This document shows, piece by piece, positions 2,797 through 20,571 of a DNA stretch of 47,692 bases. The notes beneath the pieces are model-generated. The model ran no database searches, was not told the origin of the DNA, and was given only the letters and a program-made list of their open reading frames with translations. The DNA comes from an uncultured Clostridia bacterium (GTDB lineage Bacteria; Bacillota; Clostridia; Oscillospirales; CAG-272). Location: the NCBI GenBank assembly GCA_945949385.1, contig CAMFEL010000003.1:1-47692 (forward strand), read 5' to 3'. A program made the translations under genes and the position numbers. The stretch's first letter is position 1. Each line of letters starts with the position of its first letter.

Positions 2797-3494
2797 CTGA
2801 ATACCTCCCTGAAGAACCGGTCAAGGCTTTTGCCCAACTCGCGGCGCACATTGTCGCAGTTGTTGTAAAGAATGAGCTTGCCCTCGTTTATAAACATAAA
2901 CTCATCAAGAATGTTTTCCACGTCGGAGATAAGATGTGTGGAAATTATAACCGAGGAATCGGGCGAGTAGTTGGAAATAATAGTCGAAAGAATGTAGTCG
3001 CGGGTAGCGGGGTCAACGCCGCCGATAGGCTCGTCAAGCAAATACAGCTTTGCTCTGCGGGACATAACAAGCACAAGCTGAACCTTTTCTCTTGTGCCCT
3101 TTGAAAGCTCTTTTATCTTTCTTGCAGTGTCGATATTCAGCTTTTCCAGCATAACTTTTGCACGCTGTTCGTCGAAATCCGCAAAAAAATCCTTGTAATA
3201 TGCCATGACACCCTCAACTGTCATGGAAACGTCGAAGCATATACGCTCCGGCAAATATGAAACGATGCTTTTGGTATCGGGTCCGACGGGCATGCCGTCG
3301 ATGTAAAGCTGACCCGAGGTAGGTCTCAGCAGTCCCGCGCACAGCTTTATCAGCGTGGTCTTGCCGCTGCCGTTAGGACCTAAAAGTCCTATTATCCTGC
3401 CCGCCGGCAGAGCCACGGAAAAGTCCTCAAGACCTCGGTGCGAGCCGTACGTCTTGGTAAGTCCGCGGCATTCAAGAATGGGCGCTTCTGTCAT
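2790..3494 (-). CDS. ABC transporter ATP-binding protein
   Basis: Walker A GPNGSGKTT, LSKGTREKVQLVL signature, Walker B LYLLDEPIGGVDP, H-loop STH. Confidence 0.95.
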   Translation of the reverse strand: MTEAPILECRGLTKTYGSHRGLEDFSVALPAGRIIGLLGPNGSGKTTLIKLCAGLLRPTSGQLYIDGMPVGPDTKSIVSYLPERICFDVSMTVEGVMAYYKDFFADFDEQRAKVMLEKLNIDTARKIKELSKGTREKVQLVLVMSRRAKLYLLDEPIGGVDPATRDYILSTIISNYSPDSSVIISTHLISDVENILDEFMFINEGKLILYNNCDNVRRELGKSLDRFFREVFRC

Positions 3495-11178: not shown

Positions 11179-12486
11179 ATGGCAAACGATACGAATAAAA
11201 GCAAAATAATTACCGCCGACGGCGAAGCAAAAAAATATTTTGATTTGCAGATGTCGCTGAAAGGCTCCTCACGTTTCGCAAACATACTGCTGACTTTCCT
11301 TACCATGGGTTTTGTATTCGTGTTTGCGGCTCTGTTCTGGATCCTTCCCGACAGGGATTTTTCCCCGGAGGAAAACCGCTCGCTGGCAAAGGCGCCGGAA
11401 ATGACGGTTGAAAATCTGTTTTCAGGCAATCTCACCGAAGAATTTTCCGATTATATGGCAGATCAGTTCCCCGCAAGAGGCTTTTTCGTAGGCGTGAAAG
11501 CCGTGGGAGAGCTGGCGCAGGGCAAGCAGGAAAACAACGATGTGTTTGTGGCAAAGGACAACTATCTTATTGCCCGCGTCGATTATCCCGACGAAAAAAA
11601 TCTTCAGAAAAACATATCCGCCGCAGGCCGCTTTATTGCCGCCGCCGAGGATAGCGGCATAAACTGCACCGCAGCCTTTGCGGGACGCAAAGCCGATGTG
11701 TGCTACGATAAACTGCCTGCCGTTTATAACGGCAAGTATTACTCCGACAGGATATGGGGTATACTTGATGATATGTGCAAGGCCTCCGGCTTTGACTTTG
11801 TAAATCTGAGGGATGTACTGCGCACCCACGAAGCTGACGGCGAAGAGATCTATTACAGAACCGACCACCATTGGAATTCCTACGGCGCGTATATCGCCTA
11901 TACTGCCATCGGCGACTCTGTGGGCTACAAGCCCCTTCCCCTAACCGATTTTGAAAAGGAAAAGGTCACCGACTCATTTCTCGGTACCACCTGGTCAGCC
12001 TCCGGCATCAAGTGGCAGGAGGGTGAAGAAATAGACTTTTACCGCTGGGAGGGCGACGGAGATTTCACCATGCGCGTGCTTGACCCCTCGGGTCAGCTCA
12101 GCGACTGCGAGGGACAGCGCACCGTGGAGGAGGACGGCGATGTATATTCCGTGTTTGACTCCTACTATATCCGCGATTTTCTCGACAAAAAAGATAAGTA
12201 TGCCTCCTTTATCGGCGGCAACTTCGGCTATACGGAGATATACAATAATACAGACGGGCAGCGCGAGACCCTGCTGATCCTTAAAGACTCCTTTGCCAAC
12301 AGCATGGTGCAGTTCCTCGCCCGTGACTATGACCTGATCATGATAGACCTGCGCTACTACAAAGCCAACATTACAAGGCTTTGTGAGGAAAAGGACATTA
12401 AAAATGTACTGCTTCTGTATAACATGGAAACGCTTACCGAGTCCTCCGACCTTGTAATTCTCAATACGGGACTTATGAATAAGTAA
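11179..12486 (+). CDS. DHHW / AlgJ-AlgX-like SGNH-type acetylation protein
   Basis: ENRSLAKAPEMT, TDHHWNSYGAYIAY, LLILKDSFANSMVQFLA; immediately follows the MBOAT gene. Confidence 0.88.
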   Translation: MANDTNKSKIITADGEAKKYFDLQMSLKGSSRFANILLTFLTMGFVFVFAALFWILPDRDFSPEENRSLAKAPEMTVENLFSGNLTEEFSDYMADQFPARGFFVGVKAVGELAQGKQENNDVFVAKDNYLIARVDYPDEKNLQKNISAAGRFIAAAEDSGINCTAAFAGRKADVCYDKLPAVYNGKYYSDRIWGILDDMCKASGFDFVNLRDVLRTHEADGEEIYYRTDHHWNSYGAYIAYTAIGDSVGYKPLPLTDFEKEKVTDSFLGTTWSASGIKWQEGEEIDFYRWEGDGDFTMRVLDPSGQLSDCEGQRTVEEDGDVYSVFDSYYIRDFLDKKDKYASFIGGNFGYTEIYNNTDGQRETLLILKDSFANSMVQFLARDYDLIMIDLRYYKANITRLCEEKDIKNVLLLYNMETLTESSDLVILNTGLMNK

Positions 12487-15079: not shown

Positions 15080-17521
15080 CTAAGCGCTCAGATCAATCCA
15101 CAAAGCGGGGCGGACGGCAAAACCATGATGGCCGACACGGCCGCCGTCCTCGACGACGCCGCCGTAATCGTCGAAATAGGCGGCCCAACTCTGACAGCAG
15201 CCGGGCGACCGCAGCCACCAATAGCAGTTGTCGTTGTAGCTATTGACAAACGCTCCACCAGCAACAGCATACTCGGTAGGTTTACATTGTCTTGCGCTAT
15301 CGGAGCTGAAGTACTTATTTGCTTCGGTAATGCTTAACAAGAACACCCGGTCCTGTGTTGCGTTGCCGGGGTTTGTGGAATAGCTGGGATTTTCATCTGC
15401 GGATACCGTTACCGTAGGAATCATTGCCTTTTCGTTGGCAGTAAACGCAGAATTGATGAAATTGTTATTTAACCAGTTTCGGAGTGTGCAGGTCTCCCAA
15501 GTGACGTCGGCATAACTTGTGTTGTACTGCTGGCAGTCAAGAGCATATTTGCTGATGACAAGTGCTTTGCCGTCTTTCACTTCAAGAACAAGCCACTCAA
15601 TATTTTCCTTGCCGTTGGATGTGTTGTTGTCTTGCTCGTATGTACCAAAAAACACATAATCGCCGACGTTTGCGCTTTTCAGCTTCTCCGTCTCATATCT
15701 AACGTAAATGGAATTTGCTTTTTCGGTACTGTCCTTGTATCCATCAAGCGCAATTAACGCTTCATACGCTTCAGCGATATTCCCAGCATCCATCAAGGCA
15801 ATAGCATCGTTATATTTGCTGTTGGGGATAATTACGGTATTCAATACAATTATAAAGGCGATAATTGCACAAACGGTAGGCGTTAAAACAGCAATAATTA
15901 TTTTCCGTTTCTTTGCCATGAGTTCTGCTTCCAAACGCTCCATGCGGTAAATTTCTTCTTGTTTCTGTTTTATTTCCTCAATCTTTCTTTCACAAATTTC
16001 GATTTGTTCATCTGCATCTCGCCAGTTAGGGATCTGTTTGAATTTTGCGATAGCAATTTGAAAGCCGTAGACTGAATTCTCTTTCGTTTTTTTAATCGCT
16101 TGCCTATAAGTTTCATCTTTATGACACGCTTCCGCTTTTTCAAGGCACTGATCCCTCAAACAGTCGGAATCCTTAAAACCTTTAATTCTACCAAATAAAT
16201 CGGCAGCAGTCTTGAAAGCGCTCTCCGTCGTCGCATTTGCCATAGCATTTAATGCCCATTCATAATTTCCGTTAAGTCGCTCATTCTCGTTTCTTTCATT
16301 TATATGGGCAATATAGCCTTGGAGCGATGCTTTAAGTTTGGCACCTCCGAAGCGTATAATTTTTTGATAGTTACCGTAATCGTCAAACGGCTGTTCACAG
16401 TCAGCAAGTTTTTCCTGTGTGTTTACTTTAAGCTCCGCCATAAGCTTCCCGAGATAAGCTTCGGCACATTCGGGATCAAGGTCAAGCACCTTTTCGCAAT
16501 ACTCATTTGCAGAATCCCAATCCCCATCCTCAAGGAACATAAATACCCGTTTCAGCAAAGGAGTGGTGTTTGCGTTTCCCGCGGCAATTACGGTTTCCTT
16601 CACAACTGTTGCTTTCGGCTCGTCATTTTGTGCAATCTTCTTAATACCGCGAATCAGATCCTGCATAAAGCCGAGTTTTGACATATCCTGCGCCTGAAGA
16701 TGAGAAAACTCATCGGGGAGGTCATAAGGATCCATATCCTTATATGCGGGGATGAGCATTTTTTTGCCGCCGCTTTTCTTTACCAAAGAAAGGTATCTTG
16801 ACCACTCGTTTTTCACCCATACCGCATTGAAATACTCCGGTTTTGTGCCGAGAGCCACCATTACCTTTGCGCTGTTAAGTGCGGCAAATATGTACGGCTC
16901 ATATGCGCTTCCCAACTTGTCCTCAAGAGTGATTCTTGCAAAGAAAACCTTGAATCCTTCTTGGGTTAACTGATGATAAAGATCGTTGGCTAAAACGCTG
17001 TCAGGGGTACGGCGACCGTTATTGTCTGTTTCTTTATAACAAATAAATACATCAAAAGGTTTTTCTTTGGCAGAAATTTCAAGAATACCCTTTTGGATGT
17101 CGTCTATAGCCTTTGCTTCTTCCTCGTATATCTGCTTCTGATAACCGTCGGCGTACTGCAGGGCGGATTTGTAATCCTCATCCATATAGACAGAGGTAAA
17201 CTGCGCACGGTTAACGGTAGGAACACGCTTGTGAGTAGCAGGATCTTCCACATACTCTATTCCATAGCGGCACAGCACCAAAGACCAGTATGCCTCCGCG
17301 TCGGTGCTGTCCTCGTTAAGTATCTGCTCATATATTGCCGCAGCCTTATCATAATCATTGTTGCGGCGAAAATGATTGGCTCTGTCATAAAGATTGGCTT
17401 TTTTATCATCATCAAGGCGGGGCAAAGTCTGCTTTGTCCCGCAGCTGTCGCATACCCCGACAGTTGCACCTTCTTCAAACTCTATGGTGCCTCCGCACAT
17501 TTTACATTTGAATATAGACAT
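15080..17521 (-). CDS. Zn-ribbon / TPR / TIR / TM / DUF6273 (C-type-lectin-like) receptor-like protein
   Basis: CKMCGG...CDSCG; TPR-like repeats; TIR KPFDVFICYKETD...SAYEPYIFAALNSAKVMVALGTKPEYF; one TM (KKRKIIIAVLTPTVCAIIAFIIVLNTVIIP); DUF6273-like C-terminus ending WWLRSPG...AVRPALWIDLSA; start trimmed to MSIFKCKM. Confidence 0.88.
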   Translation of the reverse strand: MSIFKCKMCGGTIEFEEGATVGVCDSCGTKQTLPRLDDDKKANLYDRANHFRRNNDYDKAAAIYEQILNEDSTDAEAYWSLVLCRYGIEYVEDPATHKRVPTVNRAQFTSVYMDEDYKSALQYADGYQKQIYEEEAKAIDDIQKGILEISAKEKPFDVFICYKETDNNGRRTPDSVLANDLYHQLTQEGFKVFFARITLEDKLGSAYEPYIFAALNSAKVMVALGTKPEYFNAVWVKNEWSRYLSLVKKSGGKKMLIPAYKDMDPYDLPDEFSHLQAQDMSKLGFMQDLIRGIKKIAQNDEPKATVVKETVIAAGNANTTPLLKRVFMFLEDGDWDSANEYCEKVLDLDPECAEAYLGKLMAELKVNTQEKLADCEQPFDDYGNYQKIIRFGGAKLKASLQGYIAHINERNENERLNGNYEWALNAMANATTESAFKTAADLFGRIKGFKDSDCLRDQCLEKAEACHKDETYRQAIKKTKENSVYGFQIAIAKFKQIPNWRDADEQIEICERKIEEIKQKQEEIYRMERLEAELMAKKRKIIIAVLTPTVCAIIAFIIVLNTVIIPNSKYNDAIALMDAGNIAEAYEALIALDGYKDSTEKANSIYVRYETEKLKSANVGDYVFFGTYEQDNNTSNGKENIEWLVLEVKDGKALVISKYALDCQQYNTSYADVTWETCTLRNWLNNNFINSAFTANEKAMIPTVTVSADENPSYSTNPGNATQDRVFLLSITEANKYFSSDSARQCKPTEYAVAGGAFVNSYNDNCYWWLRSPGCCQSWAAYFDDYGGVVEDGGRVGHHGFAVRPALWIDLSA
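15095..15238 (-). other. Candidate DGR-type variable region at the 3' end of the TIR gene
   Basis: WWLRSPG-(variable, mostly NNC codons)-VRPALWI layout; GC-rich block in an otherwise AT-richer gene; no TR, RT or Avd found in this window. Confidence 0.4.
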
Positions 17522-17523
17522 AA

Positions 17524-18318
17524 TTATTTCTCCTTGACATAGCTGCAATCAGAGCAAAGATTCCAATTGATTTTACTTTTTAATGCACTTTCTTGATAAT
17601 TGCATTTTTTACAATTGGGAGAATCATACACTCTCTTCGATAGGCTCTCTTTATATTTTTCAGGAAACTTAATTGCAACGACTTTGATTGGAAGATTGTC
17701 TAACAATTCTTTTTTTATAGAAACTATTATTCTGCATTCATTTTCATAAGACCACGGAAGTGTTTTCTTTTGAAAATTAAGATTATCAACTAGCGATTTC
17801 TTAAAATTGCCATTTACTTCATCCGAGCGTTTAACATAGTACTCTCCAGTACTTTTTTTAGAATCAGCATAGTAAATAACATCAGAAATAAAAATTCTAA
17901 ATTCGCAACTATTTAATACCTTTAATCGTTTAAATTCTCCATGCTCAAACACACCTAATTCAACAGCATCAGTATTTAATATCTGATTAATTATATCCTT
18001 ACTATAATCAATCATACATCCATCATTTCCGCTATAAAGCATCCACATTGCGACATTTTCCGATTTTGAAAATGACAAACAAACAGCGAAATTTTCATAT
18101 TCTTTTATACTACTATTTAAATTCTCTCTATCTAAAGTATCGTTCCACTTTTCACCGTTTGTTAAATAAACGGTATGATTTTTGATAATATTGGATATGT
18201 ATTCTGATTTAGAATAATATTTAAAATGTGTATGATTTCTAGCTTTTTCTTCTAGATACGATTTTAAACTGTCTGAATTTTCAAAAGAATTATCTCTAAT
18301 AGATTTATTTATAGACAT
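17524..18318 (-). CDS. DUF2971 domain-containing protein
   Basis: FKYYS...NIIKNHTVYLTNGEKWND, VCLSFSKSENVAMWMLYSGNDGCMIDY, SYENECRIIV pattern typical of DUF2971; AT-rich. Confidence 0.8.
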   Translation of the reverse strand: MSINKSIRDNSFENSDSLKSYLEEKARNHTHFKYYSKSEYISNIIKNHTVYLTNGEKWNDTLDRENLNSSIKEYENFAVCLSFSKSENVAMWMLYSGNDGCMIDYSKDIINQILNTDAVELGVFEHGEFKRLKVLNSCEFRIFISDVIYYADSKKSTGEYYVKRSDEVNGNFKKSLVDNLNFQKKTLPWSYENECRIIVSIKKELLDNLPIKVVAIKFPEKYKESLSKRVYDSPNCKKCNYQESALKSKINWNLCSDCSYVKEK

Positions 18319-18324
18319 ATTATC

Positions 18325-19023
18325 TCACTTCAACAGTTTACACTTCTTATTTCTATCACAGATCAGAACAATCAGTTCTTCAGCAACGGTGTTAATATCC
18401 TTGTCATCAGCGTTTGCCACTGTGGTAAATTGATTAAACTTAATTGCTATTTCACTTTCAATACCGGCAAGAGCGTCATCTGACATAGGATCCGAATATC
18501 GTACTGCATCATATACTTTTTTGCAGGCAGATTTTGCTTCTTCACTTTTTGCGCGGTCAAGCAGATTTTCCGCATCAACGGTCAGCGATTTAATAAACAA
18601 TGTCTGAGATTTAATTTTGCCGTCAACATTCCCGACTATATCGGACGCAGCCTTTGCTTTGATTACCGCTATTGCAGTAAACGCAAGCACAAGGAAACAC
18701 ACTATTATCCCTACCCAGTTAGGCAAATCGGGAATTGCCATGCAAAGCGCACCGAAAACAAGAGTCAAAATGAGTCCGATGTAGCTTATGCGAATTACCG
18801 GAATATTGTAAAACAGCTTTTGTTTATCGTCGGTTCTCAGTGCCATATATGCACAGACAAGCTGACCGATAAACGCTAAAGTTATAAATATGTATCCTGC
18901 CCAGAACGCACCGCCGAATTTTGACATACCGGCGATCTCGCCCGGTGTTACAAAGCATATAACGTTAAACACGGCAAGAAGGATTGCCCATATCAGCGCA
19001 TATATCTTTATGCTCTTTTTCAT
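18325..19023 (-). CDS. Multi-TM membrane protein with cytosolic C-terminal tail
   Basis: Four hydrophobic segments in the first ~130 aa followed by a soluble helical tail; tightly packed in the TIR operon. Confidence 0.75.
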   Translation of the reverse strand: MKKSIKIYALIWAILLAVFNVICFVTPGEIAGMSKFGGAFWAGYIFITLAFIGQLVCAYMALRTDDKQKLFYNIPVIRISYIGLILTLVFGALCMAIPDLPNWVGIIVCFLVLAFTAIAVIKAKAASDIVGNVDGKIKSQTLFIKSLTVDAENLLDRAKSEEAKSACKKVYDAVRYSDPMSDDALAGIESEIAIKFNQFTTVANADDKDINTVAEELIVLICDRNKKCKLLK

Positions 19024-19036
19024 TATTTCATCCCCC

Positions 19037-20167
19037 TCAGATAATATCGGAAAGCAGTTTTGCTTTCATCTCATTGAATTCTTCTTCGCTTATGAGTCCT
19101 GATTCTTTCATAATATTCAGTTTTTCGACTTTAGCTTTGAAAGTTGCCGTATCATCGGCAGGCTGAACTGTCGGTGTCTCTGCCGCGGCATTCATCGCAT
19201 CGTTTACGGCATTACCCACAACACCGCCGACAGCGCCGCCCACGCCAGCCATCGTACCGAGTCCGACACCCATATTGGTGAACTGACCGACCGCTTCGTT
19301 TTGTGCTACCTTTTCCGCAACATCAAAGCCGCGCTCCTGAGCGTATGTATAACCCTCCTGCGCCCGTTTTGTTGCCTGTGCCTGAGAATCTATCACTACC
19401 TTCTGAGCTTCTGTCTGTGCATATATCAAGTCGGTCTGCTGCCTTAACTTTGCTTCGGCAATATCCGCATACTGCCTGAAGTGCAGCTCCTTGAATTTTT
19501 CGTACTGTCTGTCTCCGTCGGGTTTTACAATTGTAGTAACGAAAAACCGTTCAAGCGCTATACCGTAATCGTCAAAATCGGGAATAAGGAGTTTATGTAT
19601 GTTTTCCGAGAACGCCGTCAGATTTTCATCGATCTCGAAAATATTGATTGCATTTGCCTTGATGACTTGCGCGATATAGGTTTTGACTCGCGTCATCAGG
19701 AAAGCGCGGAAAAAGGAAACAAGCTTCTGCTGACCGAGATGGTTTTCTGTTCCGACAAGCTTGACAAGAAGCTTACGGCTATCTTCTGCGCGAAGTGACA
19801 TCTCGCCGGATGCACCGATTGCAAGCGGGAATCCGTACTGCGGATCTATATACTGCACCTTGCTGTCGGTACCCCATTTGATTGACATTTGCTCGGTTTT
19901 GTTGATAAAGTATACTTCGCAATGAAACGGAGTTTTGTCACCGGTGGCGCGGTTTAACACTTTGCCTATTTTCGGAATATTCTGCGTTTCAAGGGTATAT
20001 CTGCCCGGTCCGAACAAATCAAGAGCCTGGCCGTTCATAAAGAAAATCGCTTCCTGAGATTCGTGAACTATCAGTTGTGTAAGACTGTTAAAGTCCTCGC
20101 ACGGATGCTTCCAGATAAATGTACTGTTATCTCCCTCATATTTTATAATCTCAGCTATCTGTGGCAT
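19037..20167 (-). CDS. SPFH-domain protein (YdjI-like) with C-terminal SHOCT domain
   Basis: IIKYEGDNSTFIWKHPCEDFNSLTQLIVHESQEAIFFMNG; C-terminal EKLNIMKESGLISEEEFNEMKAKLLSDI is SHOCT. Confidence 0.9.
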   Translation of the reverse strand: MPQIAEIIKYEGDNSTFIWKHPCEDFNSLTQLIVHESQEAIFFMNGQALDLFGPGRYTLETQNIPKIGKVLNRATGDKTPFHCEVYFINKTEQMSIKWGTDSKVQYIDPQYGFPLAIGASGEMSLRAEDSRKLLVKLVGTENHLGQQKLVSFFRAFLMTRVKTYIAQVIKANAINIFEIDENLTAFSENIHKLLIPDFDDYGIALERFFVTTIVKPDGDRQYEKFKELHFRQYADIAEAKLRQQTDLIYAQTEAQKVVIDSQAQATKRAQEGYTYAQERGFDVAEKVAQNEAVGQFTNMGVGLGTMAGVGGAVGGVVGNAVNDAMNAAAETPTVQPADDTATFKAKVEKLNIMKESGLISEEEFNEMKAKLLSDII

Positions 20168-20231: not shown

Positions 20232-20571
20232 ACCTATAAATATTTGTTACATTATATCACTATAAACAGAAAATGTAAATAGATTATGTCGAAAAATTGG
20301 AAGGAAGTGGTATCGGTTATGGAGTAATTAAGCCCTATCTTTTATCGTTTTTTATGTTTAGAAAAGGCTTGTTTTTTCTACGCTGTTTTGAAGTGTATTT
20401 GTTATTTCTCAAAGAAGCTTTTGCTTGGATTACAACATAATTGTGATTATAACATAACCGCCTGAATTGGCGTTTTTCAGCATTGCATAGCCGTCTTTCA
20501 CCCGCAAAAAAACCGAAAAGCTGTCTACGGGATATATTTCATATCGTCTCAGTTCCCGTATGAAGATATAT

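Follow-up and report, generated by a model that had tools for sequence, protein, structure and literature searches.

The question raised by this locus is whether a single bacterial polypeptide could join a sensor outside the cell to a TIR domain within it, and to what kind of system such a protein would belong. The window, meaning the whole stretch of 47,692 nucleotides that was analyzed, encodes a receptor-like TIR protein of 813 amino acids at positions 15083..17521 of the minus strand, on which all other features of this gene and its operon given below also lie. Going beyond what an earlier note on this DNA had described, the gene was found to belong to an SPFH operon, the C-terminal halves of its family proved to be modular, and its tip was found to be hypervariable and DGR-like.

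Architecture of the TIR protein and its family

The open reading frame runs from an ATG at 17521 to a final sense codon at 15083, followed by a stop at 15080, and was characterized by Pfam matches and hydropathy. Its parts are arranged in the order zinc ribbon, TPR, TIR, TPR/coil, transmembrane helix, TPR-like stalk and DUF6273. The zinc ribbon (residues 5–28; 17438..17509) contains two CxxC pairs beginning at residues 6 and 24, and all four cysteines (C6, C9, C24 and C27) showed no variation across the 57 sequences aligned. TPRs were located by Pfam near residues 44–84 and 330–364. The domain order that had been claimed for the 813-residue ORF was borne out by the Pfam matches to TIR_2, DUF6273 and TPRs together with the CxxC pairs.

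A family sample of 78 loci was collected by similarity to the window protein. Since the N-terminal architecture was the same in these 78 related loci, a chance origin of the arrangement can be excluded. The family combines a fixed N-terminal half with a modular C terminus, and many of the relatives came from animal gut samples.

The genome that contains the window also encodes another TIR-DUF6273 protein, 63% identical, at G000:C4:18345-20735 (L002, L163). Its gene adjoins a TetR-like gene and large repeat proteins, has neither SPFH nor MP232 within 4 kb upstream, and encodes a tip with a weaker NNY bias (0.80).

The TIR domain and Glu208

The TIR domain occupies residues 158–282 (16676..17050; Pfam TIR_2, E 3e-12). 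A structural model of residues 1–320 (pLDDT 85.8) was compared with known structures using Foldseek, and the best PDB folds were those of the SARM1 TIR domain with inhibitors (probability 1.00, at modest E-values of about 1e-3), followed by MyD88, plant L7/L6, SPARTA and others. Profile similarity to the TIR domains of Toll-like receptors was also detected (7ylf, E 5e-5).

A glutamate of the catalytic type had been proposed at a SARM1-like position, and this assignment is now supported by three observations: Glu208 (in SAYEPYIF; codon 16898..16900) was invariant in 104/104 family TIR domains, helix 208–217 starts at this residue in the model, and the top folds were those of SARM1. The match of Glu208 to SARM1 E642 itself was made by eye, against the SARM1 segment quoted in the earlier note. 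Taken with the model, the invariant residue makes NADase activity of the domain plausible.

Predicted membrane topology

The sole hydrophobic helix of the protein (KD 2.93) spans residues 541–559 (15845..15901), just after MAKKRK, in keeping with the single membrane crossing suggested previously. In the single-TM relatives the net charge upstream of the helix exceeded that downstream in 74/78 cases, with means of +4.6 before and +0.9 after it. An N-in/C-out orientation is therefore predicted, and the placement of the TIR domain in the cytosol and of the C terminus outside, as claimed for the window protein, is upheld as a prediction by this family-wide bias. Surface sensing or display is not general in the family, because 8/59 of the relatives with DUF6273 have no TM.

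The operon and its accessory slot

The TIR gene was found to be the last of a compact four-gene operon, in the order SPFH, four-TM protein, DUF2971 and TIR, with intergenic gaps, by coordinates, of 13, 6 and 2 bases. The first gene (19037..20167) encodes an SPFH/Band 7 protein with a C-terminal SHOCT, which is of the Band_7_1 type (E 7e-39) and carries no TM helices. It is followed by a conserved partner, MP232 (18325..19023), a 232-residue membrane protein with four hydrophobic segments and no Pfam family above cut-off, and then by the accessory-slot gene, which encodes a DUF2971 protein of 264 residues (17524..18318; Pfam E 2e-6). The DUF2971 protein also matched PDC-S31 of PADLOC (E 1e-8), a candidate-defense model. 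Consensus matching, as the only basis, placed a promoter-like site upstream of the operon (20251..20279; 11 of 12, extended TG) and terminator-like hairpins on both of its sides (20608-20572 and, with a 12-bp stem after the last gene, 15035-15009).

SPFH was present in 54/80 loci and MP232 in 50/80. Where at least 4 kb of upstream sequence was available (n = 50), the TIR gene was preceded by SPFH in 39 loci and by SPFH together with MP232 in 35. Among 98 related genomes, strong matches to the TIR protein were obtained in 9, to MP232 in 12 and to both in 8 (Fisher p 2.7e-8), and the distribution was patchy. Integrases or resolvases, identified by eye, lie upstream of some operons, and one copy was located on an IMG/VR contig beside what appeared by eye to be a lysozyme-like gene and a serine recombinase. 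A search of viral contigs with a single protein returned one contig only, which was already known.

An extra gene often stands between MP232 and TIR and varies by locus, encoding HEPN, SIR2_2, TIR_2, DUF4365 or DUF1413 proteins; DUF2971 was found in this slot in the window and in L005. Several of these types are standard effectors of bacterial conflict systems. Across species (L003, L007, L020, L033, L046 and L079) the slot swaps HEPN, SIR2-like, TIR and DUF4365 genes in the manner of effector-exchange hot spots.

In some related SPFH(-MP232) operons the third gene is not a TIR gene and likewise encodes a zinc ribbon at its start; because such genes occur, the combination of SPFH, MP232 and zinc ribbon looks like a wider scaffold. 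At L156 (G016:C7), an SPFH-MP232 operon was observed in which the place of the TIR protein is taken by two related TM proteins and a helical-repeat protein with a zinc ribbon.

C-terminal modules and the DUF6273 domain

Among 98 C-terminal halves, 58 carried DUF6273, 12 carried RCC1-type repeats and 3 carried BspA-type LRRs, with MORN, Flg_new, RHS and others as single cases; these frequencies are biased toward DUF6273 because the loci were sampled for their similarity to the window protein. The LRR fusions are at L061:2176-4644, L011:4098-7859 and L045:4165-6747, with a TM in L011 only. The relative at L050:8001-10145 ends in MORN repeats and a CFI-box.

In the window protein the C-type-lectin-like DUF6273 domain covers residues 650–810 (15092..15574; Pfam E 7e-31) and was modeled with a pLDDT of 94.5. 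The assignment of a lectin fold to DUF6273 is taken from published work (PMC10743442), and the model matched phage DUF6273 proteins as well as a DUF6273-bearing IgA peptidase (9qa6).

A hypervariable tip with a codon footprint

A hypervariable, DGR-like variable region (VR) was identified at residues 775–801 of 813 (15119..15199) by tests of entropy, codon usage and identity. It is bounded by the near-invariant motifs WWLRSPG and AVRPALWI. Mean entropy among 17 close homologs was 1.98 bits at residues 776–802 and 0.91 in the rest of DUF6273 (p 3e-6, a value that, like the other p-values given here for the VR, is inexact because the sequences share ancestry). Pairs among L003–L007, which come from five different MAGs, were 30–48% identical in the VR and 83–87% identical elsewhere in the protein.

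The variable codons are of the form NNC or NNT, the third base being constant within each column. Entropy at codon positions 1, 2 and 3 was 1.61, 1.56 and 0.80 in the variable columns, against 1.01, 0.98 and 1.35 elsewhere (p 4e-9). Selection on amino acids was ruled out as the cause of this bias by a test confined to fourfold-degenerate codons, of which 93.5% ended in C or T in the VR as opposed to 41.4% elsewhere (p 3e-20); in the full set of 53 the corresponding NNY shares were 78.7 and 47.4%. GC3 was about 0.7 in the VR and about 0.42 in the remainder of that stretch. At conserved fourfold codons, silent entropy was lower in the cassette (0.79 bits) than elsewhere (1.49 bits; p 2e-5), so that copying of the cassette from a shared template appears to have happened more recently.

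This pattern is, on the evidence of the codons themselves rather than of comparison with a template, the footprint of DGR adenine mutagenesis of AAC/AAT codons, and from it we infer that a DGR made the variation. As in DGR targets, the hypervariable region lies near the 3′ end of the gene, in a C-lectin-type domain. In phages of Faecalibacterium the VR is known to lie at the C terminus of DUF6273 (PMC11792537), and in tentaclins the VR forms a surface hairpin (PMC10743442). In the C-terminal model, strands 192–196 and 202–208 fall in the same place as the tentaclin VR hairpin.

Search for a template and a reverse transcriptase

The template that was searched for had been deduced from the VRs and is possibly wrong in places; no repeat within three mismatches of it was present in the window's own genome, in 24 + 20 carrier genomes or in 388 Clostridia, nor was it found in viral contigs. 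When each locus was scanned with the final 600 bp of its TIR gene, likewise no template emerged. In the 24 genomes, all BLAST matches to the deduced template were VRs; phages gave none, and one VR-like DUF6273 fragment on a plasmid matched it. Overall, searches of plasmids and phages turned up DUF6273 fragments and nothing more. Weak BLAST matches were dismissed as other variable regions or chance, and three IMG/VR pattern matches as low-complexity chance matches. An 85-bp copy of the 3′ end of the TIR relative in L050 was observed 2.1 kb downstream (12290-12374); it was rejected as a template, being the duplicated end of a CFI-box gene.

No reverse transcriptase (RVT_1) was found in the window genome, which is 92% complete. 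In the carrier genomes, the reverse transcriptases with a readable motif were group II intron- or retron-like, except for that of a prophage DGR in G112, the sole DGR-type enzyme with an SQ motif in the 24 genomes. This prophage-like element, L216 (G112:C2:16000-24500), has a variable region near 2122-2255, a template near 3284-3410 and the SQ-motif enzyme. It was rejected as the mutator of the TIR family, since its own template and its phage tail-type target are both different. Its recovery served as a positive control, because it shows that the search method finds a DGR when one is present. As template and reverse transcriptase were not found, the mutator may reside on elements left out of the MAGs or have been lost, or the cassettes may arrive already diversified.

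Proposed mechanism and alternative explanations

The interpretation that we put forward, at what we judge to be an even chance, is that of a membrane-scaffolded TIR conflict system of the defense type whose surface sensor is diversified. SPFH and its four-TM partner would together make up a membrane scaffold, to which the TIR protein, as a single-pass receptor with its N terminus inside, would be tethered, possibly via the zinc ribbon. The lectin-like DUF6273 domain would lie outside and bind a variable ligand, for example a phage particle or a molecule on a competitor's surface. Ligand binding would cluster the receptor on the SPFH/MP232 platform and so bring about assembly of the cytosolic TIR domains, and Glu208-dependent cleavage of NAD+ would then lead to cell death or arrest, or provide a signal for an accessory effector. 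That effector would be the DUF2971 protein in the window, and HEPN, SIR2, TIR or DUF4365 proteins elsewhere. Diversity at the binding tip would arise, in the style of a DGR, from a template-derived cassette that undergoes adenine-directed mutagenesis by a mutator acting from elsewhere. In this scheme we infer the scaffold contact, the export, the ligand, the NADase activity and the outcome. A further proposal, advanced tentatively and with more doubt than conviction, is that of a single-polypeptide surface immune receptor, with TIR inside and lectin outside, which would sit on an SPFH scaffold while a retroelement, trans-acting or mobile, actively diversifies its tip; this would amount to anticipatory, receptor-diversifying immunity in unicellular gut Firmicutes (Clostridia).

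The operon could alternatively be an envelope-stress module, in which SPFH and the membrane proteins would watch the membrane as PspA-YdjGHI does, the TIR domain would be a structural scaffold or a damage-responsive signaling NADase, and the lectin would anchor the protein to cell wall or glycans. The hypervariable tip, the nuclease/NADase-type slot genes, the patchy distribution and the finding that none of the four operon proteins (0/4) matched PspA make this unlikely, even though the TM-less SPFH protein of the Band_7_1 type recalls YdjI with its need for membrane partners (PMC8581546), and TIR-less SPFH(-MP232) operons with other zinc-ribbon third genes exist. Were the C terminus inside the cell, the helix would only attach the protein to the inner face of the membrane and DUF6273 would read invader proteins in the cytosol. 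The family members without a TM are in line with this arrangement, as are the cyanobacterial DGR targets, mostly predicted to be cytosolic (PMC7517822), and the FGS domains proposed as binders of invader molecules inside the cell (PMC8195603); the hydropathy of the helix and the flanking-charge bias nevertheless predict a real membrane crossing, and a cytosolic sensor is considered quite improbable.

The origin of the variation raises a separate alternative, which is compatible with the receptor model and which we hold to be possible but rather doubtful: the tip may owe its hypervariability to cassette exchange or gene conversion among DUF6273 copies, those of phages included, and not to a reverse transcriptase mutator acting on the TIR gene. 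The fruitless searches for a template repeat and a matching reverse transcriptase favor this explanation, as do the existence of partial C-terminal gene copies (L006 6453-6776), the carriage of DUF6273 proteins by phages and the divergent GC3 of the VR. Exchange alone, however, does not produce variation at positions 1 and 2 together with a third base that is constant within each column, so an adenine-directed mutator would be needed at the source. That a gut commensal uses the protein to modulate animal Toll signaling is extremely improbable; the profile similarity to Toll-like receptor TIR domains and the animal gut origin of many relatives would fit, but the TIR domain is N-terminal, has no export signal and is predicted to be cytosolic, and its gene is operon-linked to bacterial effector-type genes.

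Comparison with known systems

No PADLOC defense model matched the TIR protein, and a description of an SPFH-TIR operon was not found in the open-licence PMC literature. Membership of Thoeris was rejected: ThsB gave no PADLOC match, the NCBIfam model ThcB4 scored 25.6 bits against a cut-off of 220, and the gene beside TIR is not of the ThsA effector type, the partners being SPFH, MP232 and DUF2971.

The earlier note had likened the layout to that of a Toll-like receptor. This stands as a functional analogy only, in that both are predicted to combine an outside sensor, one TM and an inside TIR domain. Toll-like receptors are of type I, opposite in orientation to the N-in, C-out window protein, and the TIR domain is the only part of the window protein that resembles them. 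Extracellular N-terminal LRRs with a C-terminal TIR domain are absent from the window protein, whose TIR domain is N-terminal to the TM and whose sensor is C-terminal; sensor and scaffold are non-homologous, and the animal adaptor system is missing. With SARM1 and the bacterial TIR NADases (SpbK, TIR-STING and SPARTA) the protein shares the TIR fold and, in alignment with SARM1, the glutamate at the start of helix C, whereas identity is only about 20% and the sensor is arranged differently.

The PspA-YdjGHI system of B. subtilis resembles the operon in that a TM-less SPFH protein is encoded with membrane-integral partners; membrane recruitment of YdjI needs YdjG and YdjH (PMC8581546), and its C-terminal zinc finger also occurs in some relatives of the window SPFH protein. 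PspA is absent from the window operon, however, where a TIR receptor and accessory genes of effector type are present in its place, and the likeness to YdjI is not proof of shared function. The DUF6273 DGR targets of Faecalibacterium and gut phages, and the tentaclins, have the same domain with a VR at the C terminus and a variable beta-hairpin (PMC11792537, PMC10743442). These targets are phage receptor-binding or decoration proteins encoded with a reverse transcriptase and template, whereas the window domain forms part of a TIR receptor, and neither of the two was found.

Conflict systems of multicellular bacteria are known to pair TIR domains with hypervariable sensors of lectin fold (PMC7159879, PMC8195603, PMC10907252). 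The FGS/C-lectin systems (VMAP ternary, STAND-FGS) have in common with the window protein a TIR effector, a C-terminal lectin-fold sensor and a hypervariable 3′ end, and in both groups sensors and effectors are modular. The window operon differs from them in using DUF6273 rather than FGS, in a sensor predicted to be outside via one TM, and in that no linked reverse transcriptase was found; its predicted membrane topology, its putative SPFH scaffold, an operon without a STAND/MoxR ATPase and its occurrence in gut Clostridia set the family apart. The proposal poses a sharp question, namely the location of the mutator behind the VR footprint, and offers a concrete hypothesis of a membrane platform that would couple recognition outside the cell to NAD+ cleavage. 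Hypermutated antigen sensors have so far come mainly from multicellular bacteria and phages and, if the proposal is true, an exported hypervariable-lectin TIR receptor on an SPFH scaffold, present in many gut Clostridia, would extend hypermutated sensing to the surface of unicellular gut bacteria.
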